NCBI GenBank assembly: GCA_947259355.1
Contig: CAMYMF010000021.1
Span: 12,034-45,564, forward strand
DNA: 33,531 nucleotides
Reading direction: 5' to 3'
Source: an uncultured Nitrospirota bacterium
GTDB lineage: Bacteria; CG2-30-53-67
This document shows positions 11,597 through 29,346 of the stretch, piece by piece. The notes beneath the pieces are model-generated. The model ran no database searches and was not told the origin of the DNA. It worked only from the letters and a program-made list of their open reading frames with translations. Made by a program: the position numbers and the translations under genes. Every line of letters begins with the position of its first letter. The stretch's first letter is position 1.

Positions 11597-14500
11597 TTAC
11601 TCCTGATACCAGCCGTTGATGCGCAGCGCCGGATCGCCGCTGTCAGGAGGCGGTGGATCCCCCGGTATCGGATCGGGACCCGAGCCAGGATCGTCCACCC
11701 CGAAACGACCACGCTGATCGATAACAATGGTCTTTCCGTCCACCGCCTGCGCGGTGGCAGTGGTCTTGCCGGCCGGCGTGACTCTGACTTTGCTCCCGTC
11801 GGGACTGACCGTGATGATCTCACTGGATCCCGCACTCTCGGAGCAGAAGGCCCAAGTGTCTGCCGCACCGGTGGAAGCGATGAGGGTGGCCCGCCCTCGG
11901 TTCAGGATGGGAGCCGCATAGATCTTTGCGTTGCCCACGTAGCCGTCCCCGTCTCCGATAACGTATTTCGCTGTCCCGTCCTTGCTGCCGTCCGTTTTGT
12001 GCTTGGCGTAGATGGCATAGAAGCGGTTGTCCGTGTCACCGGCTGTACCGAAGTACACAACGAGATTCCCCGTGGAATCGAAGGCCAAAGCCGGTCGTGC
12101 ATAGATTTTGTTTGCCATGGGATCTGTATAGAGGATGCTCCCGACCCAGTCGTCATCCAGCGTGGAATCGGCGGTTTCTGCCGCAGGGTCAAAGGTGAAC
12201 TCCCAGAGCCGACCGATGAAATCGCCCACATAGGCGCGGTCCACGTAGCCGTCGTAATCGGAGTCAATGGCTGAGACCGAACCAGGGAGGAACGCGCCCG
12301 ACGGATCGGCGCAGTCGGTGCGCCGGAATTCCCAGATCTTGGAACCCGTTTCGATGTCGAGTGCGTAGACGGCAAAGCCGTCGTTGTTGTCGTTTTCGAT
12401 CCCCGATGAAATCATGGCGACATACTTCGTTGTGCCGTCCACTTTCATCCTGAGAATGCCGGGATGCGACCGGATACCGCCCAGATCGACCGCTCCCGGG
12501 AATTCCCAGAGCACCCCTGGATTGGCGGGGTCGGTGATGTCGAGCGCGAAGACCACATTCCGCTCAGCCCCCAATGGTGAGACCAGCACGGTGTGCCAAT
12601 CGGAAGCCGCGGGAGAGCCCATGTAGGAGAAGACGACATCCGCCACGGCCGGCGAGGCATCGACCTTGGCATCATCGTAGGGCGGAAAATCGAGGTTGTT
12701 CACGATCTGGGGATTGTTGTGTCTCGGAAGATACCGCCAGAGTTCCCCGCCGCTCTCGACCTTGTCCGCATAGATGGCGTGCAGCATGCCGTCGGTGGCA
12801 CCGACATAGACCATACGGTCCCGGTTGGCGTTGTTGTTCTTGAAGACCCGGAAGCTCTCCCGCTCATTGGAAGGCGACGCGTAGTACCAGAACCAGAAGG
12901 GATAGACCGGTCCCCCGACAATGGCCGGTGCGGAGTGATCGATCCCGCCGAGGGGCAGACCGGCGATGGAGGATACCTCGGCCGCTGTGAGACTGCCCGG
13001 GCATGCGGCGAGGTCACACCGGCTGTCGGTGGCATCGGAGCTGTAGATGGTGTTGTTCCCCTGCCCCGTGGCCGTCCAAAGGGGGGCAGCGGTGCTCGGA
13101 TCTGCCAGGATGTCCGCCACCCGGAATTTCCGGAAGTACCCCTCCGAGGGATCCGACGGCGCCATGAAGGAGCCCGCATAGATTGTCGCCTGATTGTTCT
13201 CGTCGGGATCGCGAGGATCAATGACGATCTCGGAGCGATAGAATTCTGTTCTGGCCACGTAGCTGAAGTTCATGTCGATCGTCTTAATGAAGGGCGTCAC
13301 GTTCACATCGTCGGTGTGCAATTCAGCCTTCCACCGAAGATCGGCGCCGTAGGTACCAAAGACCGCTGTCCAGCCGTTGCTTGCGTTCACTGGATACCAG
13401 TTTCGACCGCCATCGTTGGAAAGATAATAGGTAATGGACGTGTTGGGATAAACGACGTCCGTCACCTGCAATGTGGCACTCGTGATGGCATACTGGGTCG
13501 GATCGATATCGGCCACGTTCGTCGACTGCGCCACGCCGTCGGCGGCATAGTTGGTCAACGCTTCATTCAAATAGACGAAGGCCTTCTGCGCATCGTTTCC
13601 ATCGGCGATGAAGACATCGATATAGCCGTTCCCGTCGAAGTCACCGATACCGGCATTGTCGAAATCTCCTTCGTTGGCACCCAGATCGTTCATGTCAAAG
13701 GTAACAGGTCCTCCTGCGGAGGCATCGTATGTGTTCTCGAAGTAGAAAAGTTTTCCCGGGTGATCCGTTCCGATCATGAAGTCCGGCTTCGTGTCCTTAT
13801 TGAAATCGGCCACATTCAGGTTGGTGGCCTGGAAAACGTTACCGACGACGCAGCCAGCAACGGGATCACAGATGAAGTTCGCATTCCCGTCGTTCAGCAG
13901 CAGCTTTATCTCCGTAGAGTTGAAAGTACTCCCGACGACAATATCGATATCACCATCTCCATCAAAATCGGCCAGTCCGACGACATTTGTTCGGGGCCAG
14001 CCGGCATCGATCTCCTTGACAAACTGGAAGGTGCCATCCATGTTGTTTTTGAGATAATGAAGCCTCCCGGTGCCTGCGTCATTGGCCAGCACCAGATCGA
14101 GCCAGCCATCACCGTCAATGTCGGCGGTGGCCACCCCCGTTTCCCATAGCATGGGGGATACGGTGTGTTCGATCCCGTTGGGATTGGTGAAACTCGCGGC
14201 GCCGTCATTGAGCCAGATGCGAAGATGTCCCGCCCTGTCGTAGGAGGCCACATCCAGGTCTCCGTCGTTGTCGAAGTCCCCGGCGGCCATTCCCTTGACG
14301 GAATCTCCGTCACCGCAGTCAATAATCGTCTGCGTGGGGAAGTTACCGTCCAGCGTCGAATTTGGCAGAAAGGCAAGGGCACCGTTTGCAGAACAGCCGG
14401 TAGGCTGGTTGCCGCCCACCACCATGTCGTCATCGCCATCGCCGTCGAAATCACCACCGGCCGCGGATTTCATCCAGTTGGTGGAGACGGTGGTGGAGTT

Positions 14501-14818
14501 CATGCCGGTAAATTTAATGCCCGAGATCGGCAGGAGCAGACAATCCGTCCCGGTGCACTCCATATAGGTTTGCCCCTTTCCATCGCCCCAGCCGAATGTG
14601 GTGGTGTTTAAATCGTCTTTGTAGACGGCTGTATCAAACTGTTCCATCCCGCCGGTAAGTGCGAAGGGATTGAGATCGGTCTTTTCATCGCACGAATCCT
14701 GCGCAAATGCGGGAAACGACCCTAACAGAAACACGAAGAGCAGCGCGCTGAGGCATGATATGAGCGGCGTGCCTCCGCCTTCGCTTTTTTTATGGGTCAT
14801 CTGACTTGTTCGTCTCAT
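11597..14818 (-). CDS. pilY1: PilY1-type pilus tip/adhesin protein with FG-GAP repeats (copy 1)
   Basis: This 1073-residue exported protein is predicted to cap or prime type IV pili. A signal peptide of about 40 residues ends at FPAFAQ. The N-terminal third has six FG-GAP/VCBS-like repeats with calcium-type loops, among them DFDGDGDDDMVVGG, DFDNDGDLDVASYD, DIDGDGWLDLVLAND, DFDGDGDIDIVVGS and DFDGNGYIDVFIAD. A beta-sandwich-like middle follows (YYLSNDGGRNWYPV). The last 450 residues form the PilY1 beta-propeller: LGGIDHSAPAIV, MVYVGATDGMLHAIY, GELWRYLP, FALDITDPANPGVLWEFP and the calcium loop DSDYDGYVDRAYVGD. No von Willebrand A domain is seen, unlike Pseudomonas PilY1. The ATG at 14818 has GGAGGG upstream. 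It is the last gene of the minus-strand pilus operon and paralogous to the gene at 26101. Confidence 0.9.
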   Translation of the reverse strand: MRRTSQMTHKKSEGGGTPLISCLSALLFVFLLGSFPAFAQDSCDEKTDLNPFALTGGMEQFDTAVYKDDLNTTTFGWGDGKGQTYMECTGTDCLLLPISGIKFTGMNSTTVSTNWMKSAAGGDFDGDGDDDMVVGGNQPTGCSANGALAFLPNSTLDGNFPTQTIIDCGDGDSVKGMAAGDFDNDGDLDVASYDRAGHLRIWLNDGAASFTNPNGIEHTVSPMLWETGVATADIDGDGWLDLVLANDAGTGRLHYLKNNMDGTFQFVKEIDAGWPRTNVVGLADFDGDGDIDIVVGSTFNSTEIKLLLNDGNANFICDPVAGCVVGNVFQATNLNVADFNKDTKPDFMIGTDHPGKLFYFENTYDASAGGPVTFDMNDLGANEGDFDNAGIGDFDGNGYIDVFIADGNDAQKAFVYLNEALTNYAADGVAQSTNVADIDPTQYAITSATLQVTDVVYPNTSITYYLSNDGGRNWYPVNASNGWTAVFGTYGADLRWKAELHTDDVNVTPFIKTIDMNFSYVARTEFYRSEIVIDPRDPDENNQATIYAGSFMAPSDPSEGYFRKFRVADILADPSTAAPLWTATGQGNNTIYSSDATDSRCDLAACPGSLTAAEVSSIAGLPLGGIDHSAPAIVGGPVYPFWFWYYASPSNERESFRVFKNNNANRDRMVYVGATDGMLHAIYADKVESGGELWRYLPRHNNPQIVNNLDFPPYDDAKVDASPAVADVVFSYMGSPAASDWHTVLVSPLGAERNVVFALDITDPANPGVLWEFPGAVDLGGIRSHPGILRMKVDGTTKYVAMISSGIENDNNDGFAVYALDIETGSKIWEFRRTDCADPSGAFLPGSVSAIDSDYDGYVDRAYVGDFIGRLWEFTFDPAAETADSTLDDDWVGSILYTDPMANKIYARPALAFDSTGNLVVYFGTAGDTDNRFYAIYAKHKTDGSKDGTAKYVIGDGDGYVGNAKIYAAPILNRGRATLIASTGAADTWAFCSESAGSSEIITVSPDGSKVRVTPAGKTTATAQAVDGKTIVIDQRGRFGVDDPGSGPDPIPGDPPPPDSGDPALRINGWYQE

Positions 14819-14854
14819 GAGTATCCCTCCGTCGGAGTGGAGATATCTATATAA

Positions 14855-15355
14855 TTATTGGAAGTTCCCTTGATTCATTTCCCCGCCGCCGGCCTGGGGG
14901 TGCGATCCCCCGGTGCCCTGATTGAAGGCCAGCACGACCCGGATGGCCGCCCGTGCATTGTTGGGGCCAATCCCCTCGGAGCGGACCATGATCCGCCCCG
15001 GTTCCGTCGTCAGGGGATCCGCGACGGTGAGATTCACATCCTGCGTGCCGTCGCCGTCCACGTCGCCATTCCAGCTGCCCAGGGCGATGATGTCCGCGTC
15101 CTGTTCCTTGATGGTGCCCGCCGCCCCATCGTAGGGGAAGAACGGCAGCAGCACGTCCCGGGCTCTTTCCGCCCCGGCTTCGGCGAACTGCATGGCCATA
15201 TTGGTCTTGCGGTCATTGCCCGCCAGCTCGATTTCAATGCTGGATGAGAGCATGGAACTGATGCTGATAATGCTCAGGGCGAGCAGCAGCAAGAGAGTGG
15301 TGATCAGCACCATGCCTGCTTCGTGTGAGTTCATCTCTCTGCGTTCTCTGTTCAC
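14855..15355 (-). CDS. pilX: PilX-type minor pilin (copy 1)
   Basis: This 166-residue PilX-family minor pilin sits between pilW and pilY1. The N-terminus has a short basic leader, then a long hydrophobic helix (GMVLITTLLLLLALSIISISSML), continuing into IELAGNDRKTNMAMQFAEAGAERARDVLL. The ALxxAEAG-like helix is typical of PilX and GspK-like pilins. As in other PilX proteins, the usual Glu at position 5 of the mature pilin is absent. The GTG start at 15355 is preceded by AGGAGG at 6 nt, better than the internal ATG at 15334. The C-terminus is Gly/Gln-rich. Minor pilins and PilY1 form the tip complex that primes pilus assembly in characterised systems; this role is inferred here. Confidence 0.85.
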   Translation of the reverse strand: MNRERREMNSHEAGMVLITTLLLLLALSIISISSMLSSSIEIELAGNDRKTNMAMQFAEAGAERARDVLLPFFPYDGAAGTIKEQDADIIALGSWNGDVDGDGTQDVNLTVADPLTTEPGRIMVRSEGIGPNNARAAIRVVLAFNQGTGGSHPQAGGGEMNQGNFQ

Positions 15356-15373
15356 GTAAAACCTCCTGCCGCG

Positions 15374-16405
15374 TTAAATTCCGTAGTTTCGAACGCGCAC
15401 GGTGTTGGTTGCCGTTCTTCGGATGAAACGGATGTAATCGGCCGCGTTATAACCCGCGTCCGTCGCCGGGTCGTGGTTTTCCAGGACGAATTCTGTCGCC
15501 GGCCGGCCGGTGACACTTCGTATCGCCCGTGCCGAGCGCGCCGTAAAGCTGACCCGGACGGCACGGACCTGGTCGAGCTGGGCTGCGGCCAGCCCATTAT
15601 TGTCCCAGGCGTTGATCTCCAGGGTATTGTCCGTATTGTCCGTGTCCAGCCCGAAGGCGAGCTGCATGTCTTCGATGTTCTGGGCGACGATCTGCGGCGG
15701 GCCGGGAAGGATGTTGTTCCCGCTGTAACTCAATGTATTGTAGGGCACCCGCTGAAGGGCGCTGCCGCTCACGAAATACTTGTACCAGAAGACGTGGTAG
15801 ACGCTGTCGCCCGCGCTGTAGCCCGGAAACGTCTGATCCTGCTGCCCGCCGGGCAGGTTGAAGGTGGCGAGCCCCGCATTATGGTTCACCACGTTACCCG
15901 CCACACTGGTCACCTGAAAGAAGTGTGCCGACGCGCCGTTGGAGATCATAAAGAGATCCCCCGCAGCCAGCGCACTGGCATCGTTGAGCGTGAAGGGATT
16001 CGTTGCGTTGGCGGCATTGGCGCCGAGCGTCGTGATCAAGCGGGTCGTCAGGATGTCAAAGCTGTCCGTGTTGTTGTCGATGGCGATGGGTCCGCCAGAA
16101 GCCAGGGCAATGGTTTGAGCCGTGTTGTTATCCTGCACGACGATGGGCCGTGCGTTGTTCAGATCGACGGTTCCCGTTCCGCCCAGGGAGACACCGCCCA
16201 TGCCGTACCCCGCGTTCCGAAACTCCCGGCTCAACATCTGGTTGATAAAGCGAAGGTTCTGCTGTACCGCCACCGCCTCGCCTTGATTGGTAAAGGCCTC
16301 CTGCTGTCCGATGAATGTGCCGTAAGCACCACCCACCAGCAGGAGCCCGACCACCATGGCGATCATGAGTTCCACAATTGTAAATCCCGCAGATCCGATA
16401 CGCAT
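15374..16405 (-). CDS. pilW: PilW-type minor pilin (copy 1)
   Basis: This 343-residue minor pilin has a prepilin peptidase site at SAG/FTIVELM, with Glu5 present, followed by the hydrophobic helix IAMVVGLLLVGGAYGTF. The next segment, QEAFTNQGEAVAVQQNLRFINQMLSREFRNAGYG, is the PilW amphipathic region, including the conserved RNAGYG. The body is Asn/Thr-rich, as expected for a secreted pilin head. The ATG at 16405 is preferred for its upstream GGGAGAG and short leader. A GTG at 16423 overlapping the pilV stop (GTGA) is an alternative that adds six residues. It belongs to the fimT-pilV-pilW-pilX-pilY1 operon and is paralogous to the protein at 24620-25564. Confidence 0.87.
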   Translation of the reverse strand: MRIGSAGFTIVELMIAMVVGLLLVGGAYGTFIGQQEAFTNQGEAVAVQQNLRFINQMLSREFRNAGYGMGGVSLGGTGTVDLNNARPIVVQDNNTAQTIALASGGPIAIDNNTDSFDILTTRLITTLGANAANATNPFTLNDASALAAGDLFMISNGASAHFFQVTSVAGNVVNHNAGLATFNLPGGQQDQTFPGYSAGDSVYHVFWYKYFVSGSALQRVPYNTLSYSGNNILPGPPQIVAQNIEDMQLAFGLDTDNTDNTLEINAWDNNGLAAAQLDQVRAVRVSFTARSARAIRSVTGRPATEFVLENHDPATDAGYNAADYIRFIRRTATNTVRVRNYGI

Positions 16406-16419
16406 GAGGCTCTCCCTGA

Positions 16420-16833
16420 TCACATGATGGTTGTCAAAACGACGGACCGGTTTCGGTTGGCCGGATTGGTGTCGGGATCAAAGAGCTTCCAGGAGACGGT
16501 GACCGTCACCCGATTCAAGTCCGGCGGAATGGGCGCCACGGTGACGGCTCCTTGTCCGCTTGGCAGCGCATTCGCGACCTGGGCCTGCCAGCCTACCAGG
16601 TCGATGGTCGTGGAGGCGGCGAAGGTTGCCACGTTCGATGGGTCACTGCGAAAGCGATCCACCATTCCTTGCGCCAGCGCGTTGGCCGTGGTCATACTGG
16701 ACGCGACGGTGTTGCTCCGCACCGCCATGACCTGCATGGTGTTCATGGCCAGCAACCCCACGGAGAGAACCAGCAGGGCGACCAACACCTCGATCAGCGT
16801 GAAACCTTTCTCGCTCTTGTCTTTTCTTTTCAT
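16420..16833 (-). CDS. pilV: PilV-type minor pilin (copy 1)
   Basis: This 137-residue minor pilin has the prepilin cleavage site EKG/FTLIEV with Glu5, then the helix LVALLVLSVGLLAMNTMQVMAVRSN. This matches the PilV family, where LLAMxxMQxxAxRxN is characteristic. A short soluble head of about 95 residues follows. The ATG at 16833 has GAGGAG at 9 nt. A longer frame starting at 16884 would overlap the 3' end of fimT and put a 17-residue non-leader in front. The gene lies 25 bp after fimT and its stop overlaps the upstream option for pilW. The paralogue is at 24152-24598. Confidence 0.87.
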   Translation of the reverse strand: MKRKDKSEKGFTLIEVLVALLVLSVGLLAMNTMQVMAVRSNTVASSMTTANALAQGMVDRFRSDPSNVATFAASTTIDLVGWQAQVANALPSGQGAVTVAPIPPDLNRVTVTVSWKLFDPDTNPANRNRSVVLTTIM

Positions 16834-16858
16834 CACAAGACGCTCCTCATCCGATGCG

Positions 16859-17434
16859 CTAATCCCAGGACGAAGTGTGGTCATCCCATTTGGTAATCGC
16901 CGTACTGCCGGAGGCAGACAGCGTCACGGCATAGTTTCGCAGATTGCCGGGGTCCAGGTCAGCCTGCGCAGGATCAAAGTGAAGATAGACTTGACCGAAT
17001 AGAACGTTTCCCGCCGTGTCCCGCAAGGAGCCATCGGCCCGGAACACCACCGAAGCGCCTGAAAGATCCACGCCGCCGCCCGTGTTGAGGGCCACCCCTC
17101 CGTCTCTTCCAAAGTTGGTTTTCCCATCAAAAGTGTGCGCCCAGAGCGCCTCTCCGGCATCGATGGCACCGTTGGTGTTGGCGTCCAGGAAGGCCACCAG
17201 GCTTTCCGGTTCGGCCGTGCTGAAGTTTACCGTCACCGGTTGGGACCGCTTGATGGCCTCGAATCTTGCTTTCTGCAGATTCGAACGAATCTCATTGACA
17301 TCACTGCGCAGTTGAAAATGCGGTCCCCAATCGCTGACGGCCGGCGCGGAGAACGCCACGGTCAAGGCGAGGATGGAGAGTGTGATCAGGAGCTCAATGA
17401 ACGTGAAACCTTCTGTTTTGCTTTCAAGAAACAT
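16859..17434 (-). CDS. fimT: FimT/GspH-type minor pseudopilin (copy 1)
   Basis: This 191-residue pilin-like protein of the FimT/GspH family is first in the minus-strand pilus operon. The cleavage site is KTEG/FTFIELL with Glu5, followed by the helix ITLSILALTVAFSAPAVSDW. The GspH region has NLQKARFEAIKRSQPVTV, the conserved ARxEAIKR helix. A loop reading DANTNGAIDAGE resembles a calcium loop and is common in GspH-like heads. The ATG at 17434 has GGAGGG at 6 nt and gives the usual short leader; the longer frame beginning at 17509 would run over the sigma-54 promoter. Its counterpart is at 23527-24150. Confidence 0.87.
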   Translation of the reverse strand: MFLESKTEGFTFIELLITLSILALTVAFSAPAVSDWGPHFQLRSDVNEIRSNLQKARFEAIKRSQPVTVNFSTAEPESLVAFLDANTNGAIDAGEALWAHTFDGKTNFGRDGGVALNTGGGVDLSGASVVFRADGSLRDTAGNVLFGQVYLHFDPAQADLDPGNLRNYAVTLSASGSTAITKWDDHTSSWD

Positions 17435-17471
17435 GTGATCCCTCCCGCATGTTTGCTCTCCAAAGCTGTTT

Positions 17472-17487
17472 TGCAAAAGTGATGCCG
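17472..17487 (-). promoter_or_regulatory. Sigma-54 (-24/-12) promoter of pilus operon 1
   Basis: On the minus strand CGGCATCACTTTTGCA has GG and GC dinucleotides exactly 10 bp apart (GG at 17485-17486, GC at 17473-17474). The TTGC-A half is perfect. It ends 38 bp before the fimT start, leaving room for a short leader. The matching promoter of operon 2 supports it. Confidence 0.75.
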
Positions 17488-17513
17488 GGATATCCGCCTT
17501 TTTCGCCATCCGA

Positions 17514-17526
17514 TAACACGTTGTTT
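17514..17526 (-). promoter_or_regulatory. IHF-like site upstream of pilus operon 1
   Basis: The minus-strand sequence AAACAACGTGTTA matches the IHF consensus WATCAA-N4-TTR at all but the third position. Its centre is about 34 bp upstream of the -24 box. The equivalent position in operon 2 has a similar near-match, which is the reason for listing it. Confidence 0.35.
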
Positions 17527-17592
17527 TTATTAGGCATTAGTTTTACCGCGCGTTTACAGCCCCTGGGAAGCTTCGTCGCCGTTGTGTAGGCC

Positions 17593-17619
17593 GTTTCACG
17601 ATTATGTAACGGATTACAC
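17593..17619 (-). promoter_or_regulatory. Conserved 27-bp upstream element of pilus operon 1 (candidate enhancer)
   Basis: Read in the direction of the operon, the element is GTGTAAT-N3-TTAC-N2-AA-N2-GTGAA, containing the palindrome TGTAA-N4-TTACA. It agrees with the element upstream of operon 2 (23333-23359) at 20 of 27 positions. Its promoter-proximal edge is 107 bp from the -24 GG, against 105 bp in operon 2. This is where sigma-54 activators usually bind. Confidence 0.6.
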
Positions 17620-17668
17620 ACTGTGTCCTCGTTTTGTGGTCGGTCTCATGGAGGGGTACGGAGATTGC

Positions 17669-17716
17669 GCAACATGAATTCGAGGATGATATTTTCATCC
17701 AAAGATGATATGTTGC
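17669..17716 (+). promoter_or_regulatory. Nested inverted repeats upstream of the ferritin-REC gene
   Basis: An outer pair GCAACAT (17669-17675) / ATGTTGC (17710-17716) encloses a perfect inner hairpin GGATGA-TATTT-TCATCC (17684-17700). Another palindrome, TTGCGCAA, lies at 17665-17672. This could be a structured leader or an operator; no promoter could be confidently placed. Confidence 0.4.
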
Positions 17717-17762
17717 AGAGGACGTCACCGGTATTCGCATGCGGTCAGCGCGGGGGGGGGTG

Positions 17763-18644
17763 ATGCGAGAAACGATACGGCAAATGATTGTGCTCGAGGA
17801 GTCGATTCATCGGTTCTACCGGGACATGGCGGGCCACTTCGAGGGGATGGGCTACCTGCACGAGTTCCTCGAGGCGTTGGCCGAAGACGAGAAGGAACAT
17901 GTCGAGATACTCACCAGGGTGTGCGATAGGCTGGACCGGGATGAGCGCTTTGAAGCGGAGCTGACGATCGAGCCATCAGACCTGGAGCACATATTGCATC
18001 CGCTTCGTCAGGCCCGTGCCAGGTTTGACCGGCAACGCCCCTCTCGGAAAGAGCTTTTCCAGTGCATCGTCTCTCTCGAGTTTTCGGAGTGGAATGATAT
18101 CTTCTCGTACACTCTCTCTTCGCTCGTGCAGCAGGACAAGTCCTTCCTGTGTGAGCTGGAGAAGATTCAGCGGCACAGAGTCCGGATCCAGCAATTCTTC
18201 GAGTCCATCCCTGAGGGTCAGACATTTCTTGAAAAGATGCGCCGCCTTCCGCCAACGTGGACGGAAAGGATCCTGATTGTGGAGGATAATCGGACGGTGG
18301 CGGAGCTTCTCAAGGCGATTCTAGGGCGTATCGCAGCAGTGGATATTGCGGAGAACGGGAAAGACGGCCTGAAGAGGCTCTCGGGGCACTACTACCGCGC
18401 CATTGTCTCCGACGTCGACATGCCGGTCATGGGCGGCATTGAATTTTACAAACACGCGGCGGGAAAATACCCCCATATGCGCGAGCGTTTTCTCTTCTTC
18501 ACCGGCGATTCCTCACCGGAGCGGCTCGCCTTTTTCACCAATAACAACCTGCGCTATTGCATCAAACCCGCTCGTTTCCAGGCCGTTCGGGACACCGTGC
18601 TGCAGATGATGAACCAGGCTCCCGGCGGCGGAACGCACGCATGA
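17763..18644 (+). CDS. Ferritin-like domain fused to a response-regulator receiver domain
   Basis: This 293-residue protein has two parts. Residues 1-160 form helices like rubrerythrin/ferritin-like proteins: LEESIHRFYRDMAGHF with E12/E13, then LAEDEKEHVEIL with an E43-x-x-H46 pair. A second helical pair (LEFSEWNDIF; EKIQRHRVRIQQF) has a Glu and a His but no exact second ExxH, so the metal site may be incomplete. Residues about 173-290 form a receiver domain: acidic pair in VEDN, phospho-acceptor D217 in SDVDMPVMGG, the Thr in FFTGD, and Lys in CIKPA. There is no DNA-binding domain. The ATG at 17763 follows a G9 tract; an in-frame ATG at 17739 lies upstream of it. It is divergent from pilus operon 1. 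The function is likely signal relay sensitive to iron, oxygen or peroxide, which is inference. Confidence 0.8.
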   Translation: MRETIRQMIVLEESIHRFYRDMAGHFEGMGYLHEFLEALAEDEKEHVEILTRVCDRLDRDERFEAELTIEPSDLEHILHPLRQARARFDRQRPSRKELFQCIVSLEFSEWNDIFSYTLSSLVQQDKSFLCELEKIQRHRVRIQQFFESIPEGQTFLEKMRRLPPTWTERILIVEDNRTVAELLKAILGRIAAVDIAENGKDGLKRLSGHYYRAIVSDVDMPVMGGIEFYKHAAGKYPHMRERFLFFTGDSSPERLAFFTNNNLRYCIKPARFQAVRDTVLQMMNQAPGGGTHA

Positions 18645-18698
18645 CCTCCTGACCGCCATGCCCCATCCATGGCGTGGAATTGTCAGAGTGCGGCCCGT

Positions 18699-18727
18699 TT
18701 GGTAGGATGTTTCCTCAACACTATTGA
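18699..18727 (+). promoter_or_regulatory. Possible sigma-70 promoter for the quinone oxidoreductase gene
   Basis: TTGGTA (18699-18704) and TATTGA (18722-18727) are separated by 17 bp and lie 50 bp upstream of the start codon. Both boxes are 4/6 matches, so this is tentative. Confidence 0.35.
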
Positions 18728-18776
18728 ATTGTCCGGCTTTTCTGTGAGCGGACATCCTTCATGGAGACTTTCCGTC

Positions 18777-19873: not shown

Positions 19874-19874
19874 A

Positions 19875-21305: not shown

Positions 21306-21327
21306 GCCGGGACGTTCGAACATAGGG

Positions 21328-21371
21328 GGTGAAAAAAAAGAGGGAAGCGATCTTCCCTCTTTTTTTTCACC
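21328..21371. terminator. Strong bidirectional rho-independent terminator
   Basis: Perfect 20-bp arms (21328-21347 and 21352-21371) with a CGAT loop contain GAGGGAAG/CTTCCCTC cores flanked by A8 and T8 tracts. It works on paper in both directions and ends the 105-aa gene transcript. Confidence 0.92.
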
Positions 21372-21566
21372 AGAAGCCAACCGGGTCTATATTCTGTAGT
21401 CTGAGATACCGCAGTCGCGGGCAATGATCCTTCTCCCGTCAACTCGTTTTCTCTCAAGTTTCACGAAGGAATCCCCGATAAAGAGAGCGTTGCAAGCATT
21501 GGCCCCATCAAAGGGAGCCCAATTGCGTGCTCCTGTGATCGATTTCATTGAGGTTTTGGCATTTAC

Positions 21567-23102
21567 ATGTTATCTTTGAATTTAGAGACGAATAGAGCCG
21601 AAAAGAGCGAATCCTCAACACCTAGACATAATAATATGCCGAAACCTAGCATCAAAACCATAACTGTCCGAAATCTGACTAATATACTCCTCATCACATC
21701 CCTTATCGCCCTGATCGCCATTGGGTTCGGCTTCCGGATGATTTCTTACAAAATCATCGAAAACAAAACGTTTGCCATCGCGGAGGTGATCATCGCCGGA
21801 CTGACATCCCACATGAAAGCCGACATCATGGACAAGCGGGATTATTTCCTGGAAGAGATCAGATCGCTCTATCAGGTGCAGGAGGTGTCTCTGATACGCT
21901 CCCCAGACGTAACCGGTCAGTTTGGGTCGGGCTTTGACCTGGAACAAGAAGGGGGCCCCGTGGCAAAAGAGGTCTTTGAGACGGGACAGCCTGTGTTTAT
22001 TCTCGATGAATTCAGTCGCACGCCCCATATCCGCGTACTCATTCCCTACATTGCTACCCGTGAAGGAAACCTGAACTGTCTGAGTTGTCATGCGGTCGAT
22101 GAGGGGACGGTGCTGGGCGCCGTGGGCATCAAGCTCGATCTAACGGACTACCGGAGCCTCGTGATGAAAGTACTGACGGCCATCACACTGCTTGCCTTGG
22201 TCATGATCGTTCTGATTTGCGTCAATATTTTCAGGACCATCCAACGGCATATCAAGGACCCTTTGGAGAAACTGATGACAAAGGCTCGGAAAGCCTATCT
22301 CGATCAGGAACCGCTGAATCCAGAGCAATTCGACAGCATGGAGTTCGAGGACATCGCCGAGAAATTCAACATGTTCAACACGGAAGTCCTAGCAAATCAA
22401 AACCTGATCAACGAGAAGAACTACGAGCTCCTGGCCCTGAACGATGAGATTGAGGATACGCTGAAAGAGACCGTCTTCACCATGGGTGTCGTGGAGGAGC
22501 AAAGATCACGGGAAACGGGAGACCACACGAAACGAGTCACCCGTTATTCCAACCTCCTGGCCACGAAACTGGGACTCCCCCAGCGGGACATCGACTTGGT
22601 TACGGCGGCGGCCCCTCTGCACGATATCGGAAAACTGGGCATCGCCGACTCCATCCTGCTCAAACCGGGCAAGCTGACGGATGAAGAATTTGAGATCATC
22701 AAGAATCACGCCGGTGTGGGCTACGCCATGTTGGTACATTCCCGTCGTGAGATACTGAAATCCGCTGCGATCATCGCCCACCAGCATCACGAAAAATGGG
22801 ATGGCACGGGCTACCCACAGGGACTCAAGGGAGAAGCCATCCACATCTATGCAAGAATCGTTGCCCTCGCAGACGTGTTCGATTCCCTCTCATCCGATCG
22901 AGTCTACAGACCTGCCTGGGACAAACAAAGAGTACTCGACTGGATAGAATCTCAACGGGGCAAACACTTTGAACCCCGTCTGGTGGACCTTTTCATGGAG
23001 AACCTTCCGGCTTTCCGGGAGATCCAGGAAACCCACCTGGGAGTCGTGAACGATGGTCATGATTATGTTGAGCTCCATCCCGAAACCGCAGAGTCCCGCT
23101 AA
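21567..23102 (+). CDS. HD-GYP phosphodiesterase with periplasmic c-type heme motif
   Basis: This 511-residue inner-membrane signalling protein is predicted to hydrolyse c-di-GMP (some HD-GYPs also cut cGAMP). A helix near residues 39-59 (ILLITSLIALIAIGFGF) and a second near 205-225 enclose a periplasmic sensor. The sensor carries a CxxCH c-heme motif at C171-H175 (NCLSCHAVDEG), so it probably binds covalent heme. A HAMP-like linker and coiled coil follow. The HD-GYP domain has HTKRV, HDIGK (from H352), NHAGVGYAML, HQHHEKWDGTGYP (GYP at 415-417) and ALADVFDSLSSDRVYR, so catalytic residues look intact. Start choice is unsure: ATG 21567 and ATG 21636 both lack good ribosome sites, and a possible promoter (21548-21576) would favour 21636. 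It lies 0.4 kb upstream of pilus operon 2, on the same strand. Confidence 0.9.
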   Translation: MLSLNLETNRAEKSESSTPRHNNMPKPSIKTITVRNLTNILLITSLIALIAIGFGFRMISYKIIENKTFAIAEVIIAGLTSHMKADIMDKRDYFLEEIRSLYQVQEVSLIRSPDVTGQFGSGFDLEQEGGPVAKEVFETGQPVFILDEFSRTPHIRVLIPYIATREGNLNCLSCHAVDEGTVLGAVGIKLDLTDYRSLVMKVLTAITLLALVMIVLICVNIFRTIQRHIKDPLEKLMTKARKAYLDQEPLNPEQFDSMEFEDIAEKFNMFNTEVLANQNLINEKNYELLALNDEIEDTLKETVFTMGVVEEQRSRETGDHTKRVTRYSNLLATKLGLPQRDIDLVTAAAPLHDIGKLGIADSILLKPGKLTDEEFEIIKNHAGVGYAMLVHSRREILKSAAIIAHQHHEKWDGTGYPQGLKGEAIHIYARIVALADVFDSLSSDRVYRPAWDKQRVLDWIESQRGKHFEPRLVDLFMENLPAFREIQETHLGVVNDGHDYVELHPETAESR

Positions 23103-23332
23103 ATAGCCATCGCGGATACTTTCCACCCGCCCACCCGGCACCACGCTCTGCCTGAAACAAATCCGATCCTGACACTTCTCCAAGTGTCGGTAGGTAAGAT
23201 TTCGACTCTGACCGTTCGCGACGCCAAGTAACCTCTTCTGAACCATTCCCACAGGCCGTGCCCCATCTTGCCCGCCGTGGTTTGTCCGGACTTGGCACAG
23301 ATTCTCTTGTGAAAGAACTGCACATGCCTATT
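23103..23332. other. Gene-free stretch after the HD-GYP gene
   Basis: No convincing coding frame was found here. A perfect 7-bp hairpin GACACTT-CTCC-AAGTGTC lies at 23171-23188, possibly a weak terminator without a T-run. The rest is the distal upstream region of pilus operon 2. Confidence 0.5.
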
Positions 23333-23359
23333 GTGTAATGCATTACCCAACTGTGAATC
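23333..23359 (+). promoter_or_regulatory. Conserved 27-bp upstream element of pilus operon 2 (candidate enhancer)
   Basis: The element reads GTGTAAT-N3-TTAC-N2-AA-N2-GTGAA, with the perfect palindrome GTAATGCATTAC. Twenty of 27 positions equal the element upstream of operon 1 (17593-17619). It ends 105 bp before the -24 GG. Confidence 0.6.
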
Positions 23360-23424
23360 CCTTTACCGAAAAGAGCACGCCAATGCATGCCTGCAGTGCT
23401 GAAACCATCCAAATAACATAGTAA

Positions 23425-23462: not shown

Positions 23463-23478
23463 TGGCATGCCTGTTGCA
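23463..23478 (+). promoter_or_regulatory. Sigma-54 (-24/-12) promoter of pilus operon 2
   Basis: TGGCATGCCTGTTGCA matches the TGGCACG-N4-TTGCA consensus at all but one informative position, with GG (23464-23465) and GC (23476-23477) 10 bp apart. The fimT start is 49 bp downstream of the GC. Confidence 0.82.
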
Positions 23479-23526: not shown

Positions 23527-24150
23527 ATGAAAGATATCAGAGGGTTTACACTGGTTGAATTGGTCATTGCACTTGCGGTGGTGACCCTCATGCTGGCCAT
23601 GGGCGTGCCGTCCTTTTCCGATTATAACAGGGCCCAGAAAGTGAAATCGGCGGCCACCGCCATCCACGTGCAGATGCAAAAGGCCCGGATGGAGGCCATC
23701 AAGAGGAATAACAACGTGGGGCTGGAGTTGGTCGCCGGATCGCCGAATCAACTCAGGCTCTTTGAAGACAACGACGGGGACAACGACTATGGCGATGGAG
23801 ACAACAATGGCGTGCGCAACGTCGGAGAGCCTACCTTGCTCACGGTGAACCTGGAGGATGATATTTTGTTCAACACCAATGCCGGCGGCGCGGGTCCCGA
23901 TGGCGATCCCATTCCGGCGGCGGCAAACGAGGGGGTGACCTTTCCCGGAAGTCATCCTGTGCGCACACTGGTTTATGCACCCAACGGTGCGGTTTTCACC
24001 AACGGCGGCACCGTTTATGACGGCGCGGTCTATCTCAAATTGACCGAGGACGACAGCGTCCCTGACATCCCGGAATATGCCGTGACCGTTGGTCAATTCG
24101 GTGCAATCCAGCTCTATCGCTTCGATGGCGCGACCTGGCAGGAGAAATGA
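23527..24150 (+). CDS. fimT: FimT/GspH-type minor pseudopilin (copy 2)
   Basis: This 207-residue pilin-like protein is first in operon 2. The leader is only MKDIRG, then the prepilin site G/FTLVELV with Glu5 and the helix IALAVVTLMLAMGVPSFSDY. The GspH motif is QMQKARMEAIKRNNNVGLEL, matching the copy 1 ARxEAIKR helix. The head has an Asp/Asn-rich loop (EDNDGDNDYGDGDNNG) that could bind calcium and is longer than in copy 1. The ATG at 23527 has AAGGAG at 8 nt; the longer frame from 23467 would overlap the sigma-54 promoter and is rejected. The next gene starts 1 bp after the stop. Confidence 0.87.
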   Translation: MKDIRGFTLVELVIALAVVTLMLAMGVPSFSDYNRAQKVKSAATAIHVQMQKARMEAIKRNNNVGLELVAGSPNQLRLFEDNDGDNDYGDGDNNGVRNVGEPTLLTVNLEDDILFNTNAGGAGPDGDPIPAAANEGVTFPGSHPVRTLVYAPNGAVFTNGGTVYDGAVYLKLTEDDSVPDIPEYAVTVGQFGAIQLYRFDGATWQEK

Positions 24151-24151
24151 G

Positions 24152-24598
24152 ATGAGAAAGCGCATCCCACAGGAAGGCGGATTCACACTCCTGGAGACAC
24201 TCATTGCCATGTTTGTCTTCTCCATCGGTTTGCTCGGCGTCATGTCGATGCAGGTACTCGCCGTTCGCGGCAACTCGTTTGGCGATAACAACACCCGGGC
24301 AAACACACTCTGCATCGAGATGATAGAACGTATCGTCAACAACGCGGGCGCCATCAACGCCTACGACAACCTTGACACCCGCACCACCGGGGGTCCGGCC
24401 AGCGGTGTGGCCCTGAACGATTACCGGGACTGGTCCCAGCGGATTCAAGGCGAACTGGGCCCCGCGGGCTTCGGGACCGTGACGATTCAGAACAATCTGC
24501 CCGAGCCAGGCGCCAATATCGTGAACCTGCAGGTCGGTTGGAGTGATGGCGCGAACCTGCGGTCCGTGCAGATGAGCACAGTTATCAGCTACCCCTAA
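24152..24598 (+). CDS. pilV: PilV-type minor pilin (copy 2)
   Basis: This 148-residue minor pilin has the prepilin site EGG/FTLLETL with Glu5, then the helix IAMFVFSIGLLGVMSMQVLAVRGNS, which shares the PilV LLxxMxMQxxAxRxN pattern with copy 1. The head is about 110 residues. The ATG at 24152 begins one base after the fimT stop, and AGGAG sits 7 nt upstream inside fimT, so the two are probably coupled. It is followed by pilW after 21 bp. Confidence 0.87.
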   Translation: MRKRIPQEGGFTLLETLIAMFVFSIGLLGVMSMQVLAVRGNSFGDNNTRANTLCIEMIERIVNNAGAINAYDNLDTRTTGGPASGVALNDYRDWSQRIQGELGPAGFGTVTIQNNLPEPGANIVNLQVGWSDGANLRSVQMSTVISYP

Positions 24599-24619
24599 TA
24601 GAGAGAGTGGAGATGCCAC

Positions 24620-25564
24620 ATGAGAGGTCTAGTCATTAATGATCAGGGATTTTCCCTCGTCGAACTTCTGGTGACGATGGGTGTCTTAGCATTCGTGATT
24701 GGGGGGGTCTATTCCACTTCCATTGTTCAGTCCAAAAACGTCAAGGTCACGAACGACGTCGGCAAAGTCCAACAGAACATCCGGATGGCCACGGGCATGG
24801 TGGAGCGGGACCTCCGCTTCGCCGGATATGGCGTCGGGGACGGGAACATCAAGAACTCCATGACCAATGCCATGATGCCCGCGCTGAAGATCACCAACAG
24901 CAATCCCGATCGCATCGATCTGGTCTATATCGATGTCGGCAGCAAACTGACGGTGGACAAGCAAATGCCGAACACGTCGGCCGTCATCAAGATTGATCCA
25001 GCCGATCCGCCGACCCCTAAGGGATACAAGCCCGGCGACGTCATTATCATTACCGACGGCGAGCACATGGATTTAATGGGGATCACGAGCATCAACGACA
25101 CCGATGCACACATCGGGCACAACACGGGAAAAGTCGACGGCGTCACACTCAACACGAACAAGAATCTCAGTACATCATACGGCCCCGGCGCCTTTGTCTT
25201 CAAGGCCTACCAGGCCTCCTACTACATCGACAGCGGGAACCTCGTGATCGACCCCGATAGTTCCGGCCCAAAACCGGCTGAGATTCTGGTCCCCAACATT
25301 GAAACCCTGGAGGCGCTGGCGGGCGTCGATCTGAACGGAGACAACCAGGTGGACTCTACCGAATGGAAGAGCGGCGACTACGACAGCGGCGCCGATGATC
25401 TCATCGCCGTGCAACTCTCGCTCTCTTCCTTGTCCCCGAGCCTTGATCCCGATTACATGACCAATGCCGTGACTGTGGGAGACCAGACGCTGCCTGCCGG
25501 TCTGAACCATCGACGGCGACTCTATACTCGCACCGTGAACCTCAGAAACCTGGCCAGAAGATAG
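24620..25564 (+). CDS. pilW: PilW-type minor pilin (copy 2)
   Basis: This 314-residue minor pilin has the prepilin site DQG/FSLVELL with Glu5 and the helix VTMGVLAFVIGGVYSTSIVQ. The next helix, KVQQNIRMATGMVERDLRFAGYG, corresponds to the PilW QQNLRF..RNAGYG region of copy 1. The head is Asp/Thr/Asn-rich, including GVDLNGDNQVDSTEW, a calcium-loop-like segment. The ATG follows GTGGAG at about 9 nt. It lies between pilV and pilX in the same order as operon 1. Confidence 0.86.
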   Translation: MRGLVINDQGFSLVELLVTMGVLAFVIGGVYSTSIVQSKNVKVTNDVGKVQQNIRMATGMVERDLRFAGYGVGDGNIKNSMTNAMMPALKITNSNPDRIDLVYIDVGSKLTVDKQMPNTSAVIKIDPADPPTPKGYKPGDVIIITDGEHMDLMGITSINDTDAHIGHNTGKVDGVTLNTNKNLSTSYGPGAFVFKAYQASYYIDSGNLVIDPDSSGPKPAEILVPNIETLEALAGVDLNGDNQVDSTEWKSGDYDSGADDLIAVQLSLSSLSPSLDPDYMTNAVTVGDQTLPAGLNHRRRLYTRTVNLRNLARR

Positions 25565-25574
25565 GAGGGTTGAC

Positions 25575-26081
25575 ATGAGAAACAGATGCAGCGTCGGGAA
25601 GGACGAGTCCGGTATGGCCTTGATCGTTTCTCTTCTTACCCTGGTTTCGTTGACGGCCATCGGTTTCATGGCCGTTTACAACGCGACGGTGGAGACGAGC
25701 ATTTCCGGAAACGAGCGGAAAGCCTCGCAGGCGTTGATGTACGCGGGAGCGGGTATAGAACACGCCCGGCGAGCACTCCTGAGTCAGTATCCCTGGGACG
25801 GTTCTCCCGCCCACGGAGCAGATGTTCTCAACTCGGGGGTCGACACCAACGGGGATGGTATCAAAGAGGTGAACATCGACGGTGGGGCTACCGACTATCA
25901 GGTGGTGGTGTCGGACCCGCTGCCAACCATCCCTGAACAGATCAAAGTACTCAGTACCGGCTACGGGCCCAACAATTCCGTCCGGAAAATAGAAGCGTGG
26001 CTACGCTACAGAGATCCCGATGCTGCCGGGTCCTACGCCATGGCCGGATCGAACGAACACAACGACGGTGTTAGTGATTAG
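25575..26081 (+). CDS. pilX: PilX-type minor pilin (copy 2)
   Basis: This 168-residue PilX-family protein has the N-terminal segment ESGMALIVSLLTLVSLTAIGFMAVY, lacking Glu5 like copy 1, followed by TSISGNERKASQALMYAGAGIEHARRALL. The AGxGxEHARRxLL helix parallels the AEAGAERARDVLL helix of copy 1. The head contains a DTNGDGIKEVNID loop resembling a calcium site. The ATG at 25575 has GGAGGG at 5 nt. The pilY1 gene starts 19 bp after the stop. Confidence 0.85.
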   Translation: MRNRCSVGKDESGMALIVSLLTLVSLTAIGFMAVYNATVETSISGNERKASQALMYAGAGIEHARRALLSQYPWDGSPAHGADVLNSGVDTNGDGIKEVNIDGGATDYQVVVSDPLPTIPEQIKVLSTGYGPNNSVRKIEAWLRYRDPDAAGSYAMAGSNEHNDGVSD

Positions 26082-26100
26082 ACACGCAAAGGAACAGTTC

Positions 26101-29100
26101 ATGAAACGGTATATCCTTGTCGTGATACTAGCGGTTGTCAGCCTGGCGTTGACACCGGCTGCGGTGCAGGCAGGACCCTGCGGTGGGGGAACCAAGACGT
26201 TTACCGAGGATTTCTCCATCAGCACCGTCAACCGTGACAGCTCGGCCAGCACGGAAGCCGGCTGGAACGACCTGGAAGGAGAAATCCGCCTTCCATCGAC
26301 GGCCGCCGCATACACGGTGGAGAGCCCCTCGGCCCCTGACTTTATGTCAACTCTCTGGAACTACCGGGCAGTCGATATCGGTGACTTCGATGGCGACGGC
26401 AAGGACGACCTCATTGTAGCAGGCAACGGCGGCGCCATTGCCATTCTCACCCAGGGCTCTGCATTCGCGGCAACGGCCGTCTCCAACGGGGACAGCGACG
26501 ACATCTGGGATGTGGCGGCTTCGGATTTCGACGGCGACGGCGACGTCGATTTTGTCACCCTTGACGAAGACGGACAGGTACGGCGATGGGAGAACGACGG
26601 CTCGATGAATTTCTCTGTCGCCATTTCTTTCACCAACGGCTACGCCTCAGGCTCAGCGGAGAAGTCTCTCGCCGTCGGCAGACATGCATCCAATGGACGC
26701 GACGACAATCTCTTCATCGGACATATTCAAGATCAGTCAAAGGATTACTACGTCCGGGTCTATCTCAACAATGGATCCGATTTCGACTATTACTCCAGCA
26801 ATGACATCAATCCCGGCGGCAAGAACGCGCGCCATATGGTGGCTGCCGGCGACCTGGACGGTAACGGCTACGACGACATACTGGTCGCGAAAAGTGGCGG
26901 TGGCCAAGATATCCAGCTGATGCTGGCCGACGGTTCGGGCAATTTCACCGCGCCCTTTGATGTGGGCGTTATCAACAGTGGAACCGATATCGAGATCGCC
27001 GACTGGGACGGCGACGGTGATTTAGACTTTTTAACGGGGACCGACAGCAGCGCCGACTGGTATGAAAATGACGGCAGCGCCAACTTCACAAAACAGAATC
27101 TCTTTTCAGGCAACACCACCGATCTGGCAGTGGGAGACCTCAATAGCGACGGAGCGCCGGACGCGTTCTATCTCCATACTAATTCTGGAAATCTGCAATG
27201 GGTGATTAGTCAAACATCGGGCTACGCGACGTCCGCGGTGGCCCAGTCAAACAATATAGCGGCCGCCCTTCCTGCAGGTTCGGCCATCGATGCGGCAACG
27301 ATTACCAAGTCTCCTGGAGATTCTTTCGATATACGGGGCTGCGATCCGGCCTTCAACACGATGGATCCGGGAAGCTGCATCAAGTATTTCCTGACCAATG
27401 TAAACCCTGCCTCCAATCCGGGAAGCTGGGAGCAGTTTGACCCGGGCACCTCCGGTCTCTTTACCACCTCCGGCAATGAGCTTTACTTCAAGGTAGAGTT
27501 TGAGGGGGATGGCGCCACGACGTCCACCGTCAACACCCTGGCCATCGAGTACAGCTATTCCGGGGAACGCTACATCTACCGAGCCGAAAGCGTCGTGGAC
27601 AAACAGGCCCGGGTCTTGGTTCAAGGAAGCTTCAAGCAGGGCGTCACTCCTTCAGAAGGGATGCTCGAGCCCTACGATCTTACGGTGGTACCTCCCGCCC
27701 GGATGGCAGAGATAAAAGGCGTGGTCTGGAATGGACCGAGAATAGTCTACACCAGCGACGGGGCCGGCAACCGTGTCGATTATACCGCAGCCAGCTCCGG
27801 CCTCACCGGTGCACAGGTCAGCGACGTGCAAGCCCTTTCCCTCGGGGGGATCGACCATTCGGCACCGGTGATCATGCGGGGCGTGGTATTTCCCAGCTGG
27901 TACTATCTGTCCGGCAATTCAAGCCCCGTTGAAAAATCGGCATTCGACGTCTTTCGCTCCCTGCACCATCAAAGAACCACTTCCTGGTTCATCGGGGCCA
28001 ACGATGGAATGATCCACGCCTTCGACGGAGAGCCCGAAACGAGCGGCGGCGCCAGCAATCCCGACTTCGGAAAGGAACTCTGGGCCTATATCCCCTCGGA
28101 GTATGCCACGGATATCATCAACAATACGGATGCAGACCCCTCCAACGACGTGAAAGTGGACGTACCCGGAACTCTGGCCGACTGCTACGATCCGCGCCCG
28201 CTCTACCAGAAATTCAGGTCCCTCCTGGTGATGCCTTTGGCGGGCGACCGGAACGACATCGTCTGTCTCGATGTGACAGATCCCGTGAATCCGGAGGTCA
28301 TGTGGGAGTTTCCATCGGCGCCAACCAGTGACTACGACAATATCCGGGGCGTGCTGGCCATGGGACGGATCCTGGACGATGCCGCACCCTTGGCGGGCGA
28401 ACCGACAGGCCGCTTTGTCGTCATCGGAACCAGTGCTGTGCAGTGGCCGGGTGTAAGCCCGAAACACCCTGTAACCGGCGCTCCCGGTCCAGGCTACACG
28501 GTGCGGATCTTCATACTGGATGCCATCACGGGGACGTTGATCAAGGACTTTCCGATCTATTATCCCACAACGTTGGCTAACTACGCGCCTCCCGGACCGA
28601 GCGTCGCAGATCGTGACAAGGACGGCTATCTGGACATCATATTCTATCCTGACCTTTACGGGGACCTAAAGATCGTGTCACTGGGCTCGAGGATCTTAGG
28701 CAGCTTCCAGATCGACGAAGACGAAGACCCCAATCTGTGGACGCAGGAGACTTTCTACGAAGATGTCGATCCCACCTTTGATGATCTCGCCTTCGGCTAT
28801 GGCAGAGTGGCTGTGGGGCACGCGACCAATGGTGACCTCCTTGCTTTTTATGGCACGGCAGGGGACGGCGACAATCGCTTCTACGGCATCTGCGTGATGG
28901 GCACCTGCACCGAAAGGGATCCGCTGTTCATTGTTGGAGACGAAGGGAGTTACCTGCTGCAAGAGCGGGTCATCGCCTCTCCGGTCGCAATCAACAACAA
29001 TGTCTTCTTCTTTGGCACCGGCAATGAATACATCGACAGCGGGACACCTCAACCCTACGGTATCGACCAGATTCTTCCGTGCAGCGTCACCCCGCCTTCA

Positions 29101-29346
29101 ACGACGCTCTATGCGGTAAAACTGGGCTTGGGCGGCACCGGTACAGACATCGACTCGGTCGCCCATTTGGTCACCAAACAGTTTGAGGACACAGCGGCGA
29201 CCCCGCAGGCCGTCGGTGAAAGCGTGGTCGGCGTAACCAAAGATGGGGACATTATAGTCGAGGGCTCTCCCTTCTCCGAGGGGTCCGAAGGCGGCGGCAT
29301 TGGTGACAAATACATCCGCATCCTGGGATGGATCGAAATTTTCTGA
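26101..29346 (+). CDS. pilY1: PilY1-type pilus tip/adhesin protein with FG-GAP repeats (copy 2)
   Basis: This 1081-residue exported protein ends operon 2. The signal peptide runs to VQA near residue 24. FG-GAP/VCBS-like loops follow: DFDGDGKDDLIVAG, DFDGDGDVDFVTLD, DLDGNGYDDILVAK, DWDGDGDLDFLTGT and DLNSDGAPDAFYLH. A middle beta-rich part follows (CIKYFLTNVNPASNPGSW). The PilY1 propeller has LGGIDHSAPVIM, SWFIGANDGMIHAFD, ELWAYIPSEY, VCLDVTDPVNPEVMWEFP and DRDKDGYLDIIFYPDLYGD. As in copy 1, no von Willebrand A domain is visible, and both end in an R-I-x-G-W motif near the C-terminus. The ATG at 26101 has AAGGAA upstream; the in-frame ATG at 26020 lies inside pilX and is rejected. Confidence 0.9.
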   Translation: MKRYILVVILAVVSLALTPAAVQAGPCGGGTKTFTEDFSISTVNRDSSASTEAGWNDLEGEIRLPSTAAAYTVESPSAPDFMSTLWNYRAVDIGDFDGDGKDDLIVAGNGGAIAILTQGSAFAATAVSNGDSDDIWDVAASDFDGDGDVDFVTLDEDGQVRRWENDGSMNFSVAISFTNGYASGSAEKSLAVGRHASNGRDDNLFIGHIQDQSKDYYVRVYLNNGSDFDYYSSNDINPGGKNARHMVAAGDLDGNGYDDILVAKSGGGQDIQLMLADGSGNFTAPFDVGVINSGTDIEIADWDGDGDLDFLTGTDSSADWYENDGSANFTKQNLFSGNTTDLAVGDLNSDGAPDAFYLHTNSGNLQWVISQTSGYATSAVAQSNNIAAALPAGSAIDAATITKSPGDSFDIRGCDPAFNTMDPGSCIKYFLTNVNPASNPGSWEQFDPGTSGLFTTSGNELYFKVEFEGDGATTSTVNTLAIEYSYSGERYIYRAESVVDKQARVLVQGSFKQGVTPSEGMLEPYDLTVVPPARMAEIKGVVWNGPRIVYTSDGAGNRVDYTAASSGLTGAQVSDVQALSLGGIDHSAPVIMRGVVFPSWYYLSGNSSPVEKSAFDVFRSLHHQRTTSWFIGANDGMIHAFDGEPETSGGASNPDFGKELWAYIPSEYATDIINNTDADPSNDVKVDVPGTLADCYDPRPLYQKFRSLLVMPLAGDRNDIVCLDVTDPVNPEVMWEFPSAPTSDYDNIRGVLAMGRILDDAAPLAGEPTGRFVVIGTSAVQWPGVSPKHPVTGAPGPGYTVRIFILDAITGTLIKDFPIYYPTTLANYAPPGPSVADRDKDGYLDIIFYPDLYGDLKIVSLGSRILGSFQIDEDEDPNLWTQETFYEDVDPTFDDLAFGYGRVAVGHATNGDLLAFYGTAGDGDNRFYGICVMGTCTERDPLFIVGDEGSYLLQERVIASPVAINNNVFFFGTGNEYIDSGTPQPYGIDQILPCSVTPPSTTLYAVKLGLGGTGTDIDSVAHLVTKQFEDTAATPQAVGESVVGVTKDGDIIVEGSPFSEGSEGGGIGDKYIRILGWIEIF

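Follow-up and report, generated by a model that had tools for sequence, protein, structure and literature searches.

Two diverged minor-pilin/PilY1 operons with FG-GAP-type PilY1 proteins probably serve one type IVa pilus machine in an uncultured Nitrospirota bacterium

PilY1 sets what a type IV pilus adheres to. In Pseudomonas aeruginosa, it is encoded in an operon of the order FimU-PilV-PilW-PilX-PilY1-PilE, and in Neisseria, it is mainly the adhesin gene that is duplicated and phase-varied. In Myxococcus xanthus, separate minor-pilin/PilY1 clusters each support pili on one machine (PMC7541494), different tip complexes have been considered possible (PMC8833165), and the NtrC-like regulator HsfA binds the pilY1.1 and pilY1.3 promoters, shifting their balance (PMC9109919). 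A survey of PilY1 architectures lists VWA and DUF4114 as the sole N-terminal domains (PMC13190605). Here we describe two fimT-pilV-pilW-pilX-pilY1 operons, sets A and B, from an uncultured Nitrospirota bacterium (assembly GCA_947259355.1, called G000 below; 3.1 Mb, 89.7% complete). They lie in a stretch of 33,531 nucleotides, the window, which is part of contig C21 (CAMYMF010000021.1, positions 12,034 to 45,564). Both are probably accessory operons of one lineage, the E type, that serve a single type IVa pilus machine, encode FG-GAP-type PilY1 proteins, and are under sigma-54/NtrC-type control.

Both sets are complete and have the same gene order, set A on the minus strand (17434-11597) and set B on the plus strand (23527-29346), and they head away from each other with about 6 kb of other genes between them. 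A reading made earlier from the letters alone (the sequence-only reading) had described them as paralogous operons on opposite strands; all ten genes are indeed intact open frames at the positions it gave, the family profiles agree, and its starts at 17434 and 23527 are the correct prepilin starts. It also held that the major pilin and the assembly machinery are absent from the window, where we likewise recognized no such gene, and that the protein pairs are too diverged for a recent duplication. The identities of A and B over aligned columns bear this out (28% for FimT, 35% for PilV, 26% for PilW, 39% for PilX, and about 32% for PilY1), and a recent duplication was rejected on this range of 26-39%. 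Pilin and PilY1 genes were named by Pfam and NCBIfam profiles; the families matched were GspH/FimT, N_methyl, PilW, PilX_N, and FG-GAP, with the PilY1 propeller for A (Table 1). The prepilin motif G-F-x-x-x-E is present in FimT, PilV, and PilW of both sets, both PilX proteins have G-M and lack Glu5, as does M. xanthus PilX (PMC7541494), and the class III prepilin motif was found in four minor prepilins of each set.

PilY1-A and PilY1-B both start with what looks by eye like a type I signal peptide and continue with an FG-GAP array and then the PilY1 propeller. The FG-GAP PilY1 profile matched the C-terminal domain of P. aeruginosa PilY1 (3HX6) with an E value of 1e-48 and with the Ca2+ loop in register. 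The C-terminal half of PilY1-B taken alone is under the Pfam cut-off (18.5 bits, E 0.0012), and the protein aligns with PilY1-A over its full length, including the Ca2+ loop (33% identity, E 7e-80); because of this full-length homology, PilY1-B is considered to have the conserved C-terminal propeller. The FG-GAP part of PilY1-A, modelled from an alignment of five sequences with moderate confidence (predicted local distance difference test, pLDDT, of 67), resembles beta-propellers, including that of integrin alpha4beta7, with Z scores of 22-25, which suggests that the FG-GAP repeats with their Ca2+ loops fold as a propeller. AlphaFold modelled full-length PilY1-A poorly (pLDDT 47.6), and we therefore make no claim based on the C-terminal half of that model. 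Neither protein is of the VWA type known from P. aeruginosa and from M. xanthus PilY1.3, with an N-terminal VWA/MIDAS domain: neither gave a VWA match by Pfam or a DxSGSM motif in the motif scan. Among the papers searched, the only one that names both PilY1 and FG-GAP concerns common Ca2+ loops and not an architecture of FG-GAP plus PilY1 propeller. Among the PilY1 loci inspected from 386 genomes, a rough screen of partial loci, only A and B had at least three DxDxDGxxD motifs. The contigs of other genomes were scanned with FG-GAP motifs, which returned mostly unrelated FG-GAP proteins, with three of 80 loci reaching the PilY1 half; the same architecture occurs in two Aminicenantes genomes (L093, L094) and, more weakly, in a Myxococcales genome (L095). 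Two pilY1 propeller genes adjoin each other in an unrelated genome (G092:C11:18707-22551).

The pilus machine is encoded elsewhere in G000, with one PilMNOPQ locus on contig C1 and one PilB-PilT-PilC locus, accompanied by PilS and PilR, on C5. A locus of the type II secretion system (T2SS) type, with pseudopilins, GspE, and a GspL-like gene, is found on C12. PilN, PilO, PilP, PilQ, PilC, PilS, and the T2SS members beyond the pseudopilins, GspE, and GspL were named by eye from position and sequence. Further PilB-like ATPases on C2, C16, and C7 have no pilins nearby, and a dedicated machine beside A and B was rejected, as none was recognized on the contig. Because the PilMNOPQ and PilB-PilT-PilC loci are single and the T2SS is separate, A and B are best read as accessory sets for the tips of pili that a shared type IVa machine builds. 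Contig C23 carries a third PilY1 set, C, with fimT, pilV, pilW, and a PilY1 of 1286 aa that has the VWA-type motif DASGSM near its N terminus. At the end of the same contig is a fourth set, D, of pilins only: fimT, pilV, pilW, and a 458-aa PilX-like protein (L052:5355-8220; C23:73355-76219), without PilY1 and conserved in the family. The sequence-only reading, which missed both C and D, had supposed two tip sets on a shared machine; the shared machine stands with the C1 and C5 loci, but the count does not, as there are three PilY1 sets. The pilX of set C (L051:8973-9559) is apparently split over two frames in G000 and intact in the family members G002 and G004, which appears to be decay or an assembly error.

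The PilY1 propeller tree joins A and B as sister branches with support of 100/99; their group also contains the proteins of the relatives G003, G005, and G006 and excludes set C, and PilY1-B sits on a long branch. The tree of concatenated minor pilins agrees, more weakly (72/83 for A+B and 70/88 for A+B+E). An E operon, in the same gene order as A and B, is present once each in G003 and G005, and in its PilY1, Pfam recognizes neither FG-GAP nor VWA; G005 also holds a second, partial operon of the A/B/E type. On the two trees, A and B appear to be old paralogues of the E-type lineage, in which the N-terminal module of PilY1 would have been exchanged. No close match to A or B was found in G001-G005, the incomplete assembly of G001 being a caveat. 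This genus-mate, G001, has the C and D pilins and no A or B that we could find, and G003 and G005 carry same-type operons with another PilY1 N terminus; joint retention of A and B in relatives, which had been suggested as a check, was thus not observed. The standing sets of the family are C and D: C-type pilins are present in G001, G002, and G004, and set D in G001 (about 74-80% identity), G002, G003, and G005; G004 has D-like genes.

The promoters of sets A, B, and C and of the matching operons of relatives share a paired palindrome, TGTAAYNNRTTACA with a second copy 20 bp after it, 119-131 bp upstream of a sigma-54 -24/-12 site. From the start of the palindrome to the sigma-54-like site, the distance is 129-131 bp upstream of A and B, 131 bp for the E operons of G003 and G005 and the second G005 operon, and 119 bp for set C of G002 and G004; the spacing at A and B is that of the E type, in agreement with the trees. 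Set C of G000 has the same layout with degenerate palindromes, which were located via the exact core TTACNNAANNGTGAA. This makes eight promoters in which the palindrome element is combined with a -24/-12 site, seven of them found by the pair scan and that of G000 set C by the core. The palindrome pair occurs nowhere else in 595 kb of family-and-class sequence, consisting of loci picked for pilus genes, and not at all in 578 kb of shuffled sequence. The sigma-54 pattern alone, with two mismatches allowed, is at chance level in the window (11 found vs 9.4 expected); the sites are convincing because of the conserved palindrome pair, the fixed spacing, and the conservation across genomes. Sigma-70 promoters were rejected, with a single weak candidate at A and none convincing at B, and the palindrome pattern GTAAN5TTAC, which has the wrong spacing, gave one unrelated match only. 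In both G002 and G005, operons of this kind have as immediate neighbour a gene for an NtrC-type response regulator that contains a sigma-54 interaction domain; the G005 copies are 93% identical to each other, about 73% identical to that of G002, and about 45% identical to PilR. In G005 (L199:2-2900 and L086:3-7783), each of two tip operons lies beside its own NtrC-type regulator, a duplication of operon plus regulator. The promoter design predicts common activation of A, B, and C by a regulator that we infer to be of the NtrC type.

From these data, the following mechanism can be proposed. FimT, PilV, PilW, PilX, and PilY1 of each set are predicted by homology to form, at the inner membrane, a priming complex that would be carried to the pilus tip, where PilY1 may act as a Ca2+-dependent adhesin on the single type IVa machine. 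The tip and priming function of A and B is supported by homology with P. aeruginosa PilY1 (3HX6) and with M. xanthus. Both sets would go back to a single operon lineage that duplicated long ago; this lineage is also found in G003, G005, and G006 and is separate from the VWA-type set C. The PilY1 proteins of A and B would combine the conserved C-terminal propeller with an FG-GAP propeller as the N-terminal binding module. Transcription is predicted to depend on sigma-54 and on an NtrC-type activator that binds the palindrome pair in front of A, B, and C. The tip types would then probably be induced together and differ in what they bind, with no strict switch. Four observations weigh against this proposal. 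Neither G000, at 89.7% completeness, nor G001 yielded a canonical major pilin despite the assembly machinery; a gap in the assembly is the probable reason, and G002 and G003 have pilA-like genes in tandem. An orthologue of the NtrC-type activator was not located in the part of G000 searched, which included contigs C21 and C23. Degenerate palindromes occur as the second copy in A and B and as both copies in C, and the support of the minor pilins for A+B (72/83) is modest.

The sequence-only reading suggested that conditions swap the A and B tips, one at a time, on the shared machine. The operons are separate and have different neighbours (a receiver protein beside A, an HD-GYP protein before B), their second palindromes are not alike and could grade the response, and in M. 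xanthus, pilY1.1 and pilY1.3 respond to HsfA in opposite ways (PMC9109919). However, A, B, and C have the same sigma-54 and paired-palindrome design at activating distance, from which joint activation by an NtrC-type regulator is predicted rather than a simple swap; the swap is not the simplest reading, and we regard it as rather unlikely. More extensive interchange across this family of bacteria is conceivable, though we hold it only tentatively: tips that exchange PilY1 N-terminal modules (FG-GAP, VWA, and a third type) under the common sigma-54/NtrC-type code and are displayed together on mixed pili. If so, one signal would switch on several tips, and A and B would be co-displayed, double-propeller, Ca2+-dependent isoforms. 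That A and B are redundant remnants of a duplicated island, with set C doing the work, would fit their restriction to one lineage, with neither found in G001, and the long branch of PilY1-B. Still, the ten frames are intact, both promoters and both Ca2+ loops are kept, and set C is not clearly better preserved because its own pilX appears split. Consistent decay of one set in related strains had been named as a refutation of the sequence-only reading, but neither window set is decayed; we consider the remnant explanation improbable.

Accessory operons on one pilus machine are our preferred reading. FimT/GspH and PilX/GspK are related families, so that one or both sets could in principle belong to a T2SS or another pilin-based secretion device. 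This is extremely unlikely, and the sequence-only reading, which had named it as a way to fail, holds here: the T2SS has its own pseudopilin/GspE locus on C12, PilY1, which both sets contain, is not a T2SS component, the gene order is that of type IVa pilus tip clusters, and no linked GspC-N genes are present in the window. It is also very unlikely that the contig is foreign and mis-binned, which would make the coexistence of A and B with set C an artefact. The family offers no full orthologue of the contig gcvT, and window positions 3500-23400, from gcvT to just before set B, lack DNA matches of more than about 150 bases in G001-G005. On the other side, the left 7.3 kb of the contig align with DNA of the genus-mate G001, mostly at 82-92% identity, the promoter design is that of the other tip operons of the family, and the tetranucleotide profile is within the G000 range, or at its low edge in places, and fits G000 better than other genera of the family. 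Because of the G001 match and the tetranucleotide fit, mis-binning was rejected, and the contig is taken as genuine and the A/B region as accessory to the species, again with the incomplete G001 assembly as a caveat.

The genes between A and B encode a receiver/rubrerythrin-like protein, a quinone oxidoreductase, ChaN, and an HD-GYP protein (Pfam). The first and last are candidate signalling inputs, and the HD-GYP protein is possibly a cyclic di-GMP phosphodiesterase. A repeat up to 450 bp long, scattered through the family genomes in dozens of copies, flanks the accessory region on both sides (L055:7384-7833 and window 31849-32034). A tRNA-Met (L055:10112-10188), about 1.9 kb left of the window and near the side on which DNA similarity to relatives stops, is a possible integration site. 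To the right of set B, a direct repeat of 98 bp (88% identical) occupies window positions 31764-31861 and 33216-33313.

Table 1 Features of sets A and B and their surroundings, in window positions
Feature	Position	Strand	Evidence
Set A fimT (GspH/FimT-type minor prepilin)	16859..17434	-	PF12019 3e-9, N_methyl; motif G-FTFIE
Set A pilV	16420..16884, likely start near 16833	-	TIGR02523 PilV 78.9 bits, above cut-off
Set A pilW	15374..16423	-	PF16074 2.5e-11
Set A pilX (without Glu5)	14855..15355	-	PF14341 2e-7; motif
Set A pilY1, 1073 aa: signal peptide, FG-GAP propeller, PilY1 propeller	11597..14818	-	PF13517 8.5e-32, PF05567 5.6e-18, 3HX6 profile match
FG-GAP (integrin-alpha-like) propeller of PilY1-A, residues ~116-420	13559..14473	-	Pfam; model mff515bdf7700
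PilY1-A Ca2+ loop DSDYDGYVD	12239..12265	-	In register with 3HX6 site; motif scan
Terminator-like hairpin after set A, 13 pairs, T-rich tail	11523..11556	-	
Set A sigma-54-like -24/-12 site CGGCATCACTTTTGCA	17472..17487	-	
Set A paired palindrome, TGTAATCCGTTACA plus degenerate second copy	17585..17618	-	
Receiver domain with rubrerythrin-like N terminus, beside set A	17739..18644	+	Pfam
Membrane HD-GYP protein with CxxCH motif, upstream of B on the same strand	21567..23102	+	PF13487 1e-31
Set B paired palindrome, TGTAATGCATTACC plus degenerate second copy	23334..23367	+	
Set B sigma-54-like -24/-12 site TGGCATGCCTGTTGCA	23463..23478	+	
Set B fimT	23527..24150	+	PF12019 4e-7, N_methyl; motif G-FTLVE
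Set B pilV	24089..24598, likely start near 24152	+	N_methyl; TIGR02523 49.4 bits, slightly below cut-off 52.2
Set B pilW	24620..25564	+	PF16074 2e-5, slightly below cut-off; N_methyl
Set B pilX (without Glu5)	25575..26081	+	PF14341 1.5e-5; 36% to PilX-A over whole length
Set B pilY1	26101..29346; frame open from 26020, likely start MKRYILVV at 26101	+	FG-GAP (PF13517) 2.3e-25; 33% to PilY1-A
FG-GAP propeller of PilY1-B, residues ~112-400 of the 26020 frame	26353..27219	+	
PilY1-B Ca2+ loop DRDKDGYLD	28609..28635	+	Alignment with A; motif scan

Several tip sets per genome on one machine are already established in M. xanthus (PMC9109919, PMC8833165) and are not new. As in clusters 1-3 of that species (PMC7541494, PMC8833165, PMC9109919, PMC13190605), G000 has several complete sets with four minor pilins each and one machine, and PilY1 proteins with a conserved C-terminal propeller and divergent N termini; an NtrC-like regulator binds pilY1 promoters in M. 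xanthus, as is predicted here. Unlike in M. xanthus, the N terminus of the window PilY1 proteins is an FG-GAP propeller and not DUF4114 or VWA, A and B are 6 kb apart in opposite orientation, and A, B, and C share one enhancer and sigma-54 layout. The gene types and order, the C-terminal propeller, and the Ca2+ loop are those of the P. aeruginosa operon and 3HX6, whereas the P. aeruginosa protein has a VWA N terminus, no pilE homologue was recognized here, and two operons lie side by side. Neisseria, with PilC1 and PilC2, as well as Xylella and Kingella (PMC13190605), also have more than one PilY1-type tip adhesin per genome, but in contrast to Neisseria, whole minor-pilin operons are duplicated here. 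The Aminicenantes locus L094 (L093 is partial) has the same gene order and the same FG-GAP plus PilY1 propeller architecture, but it belongs to another phylum, has a single set in the stretch examined, and is 30-31% identical to PilY1-A over the whole length. What is added here is the pair of diverged FG-GAP double-propeller PilY1 proteins, the third set, the lineage-restricted location, and the conserved promoter code. An FG-GAP tip propeller in two copies, together with a common promoter code, offers a handle on how tip adhesins diversify and are regulated, and on whether tips are switched or mixed.

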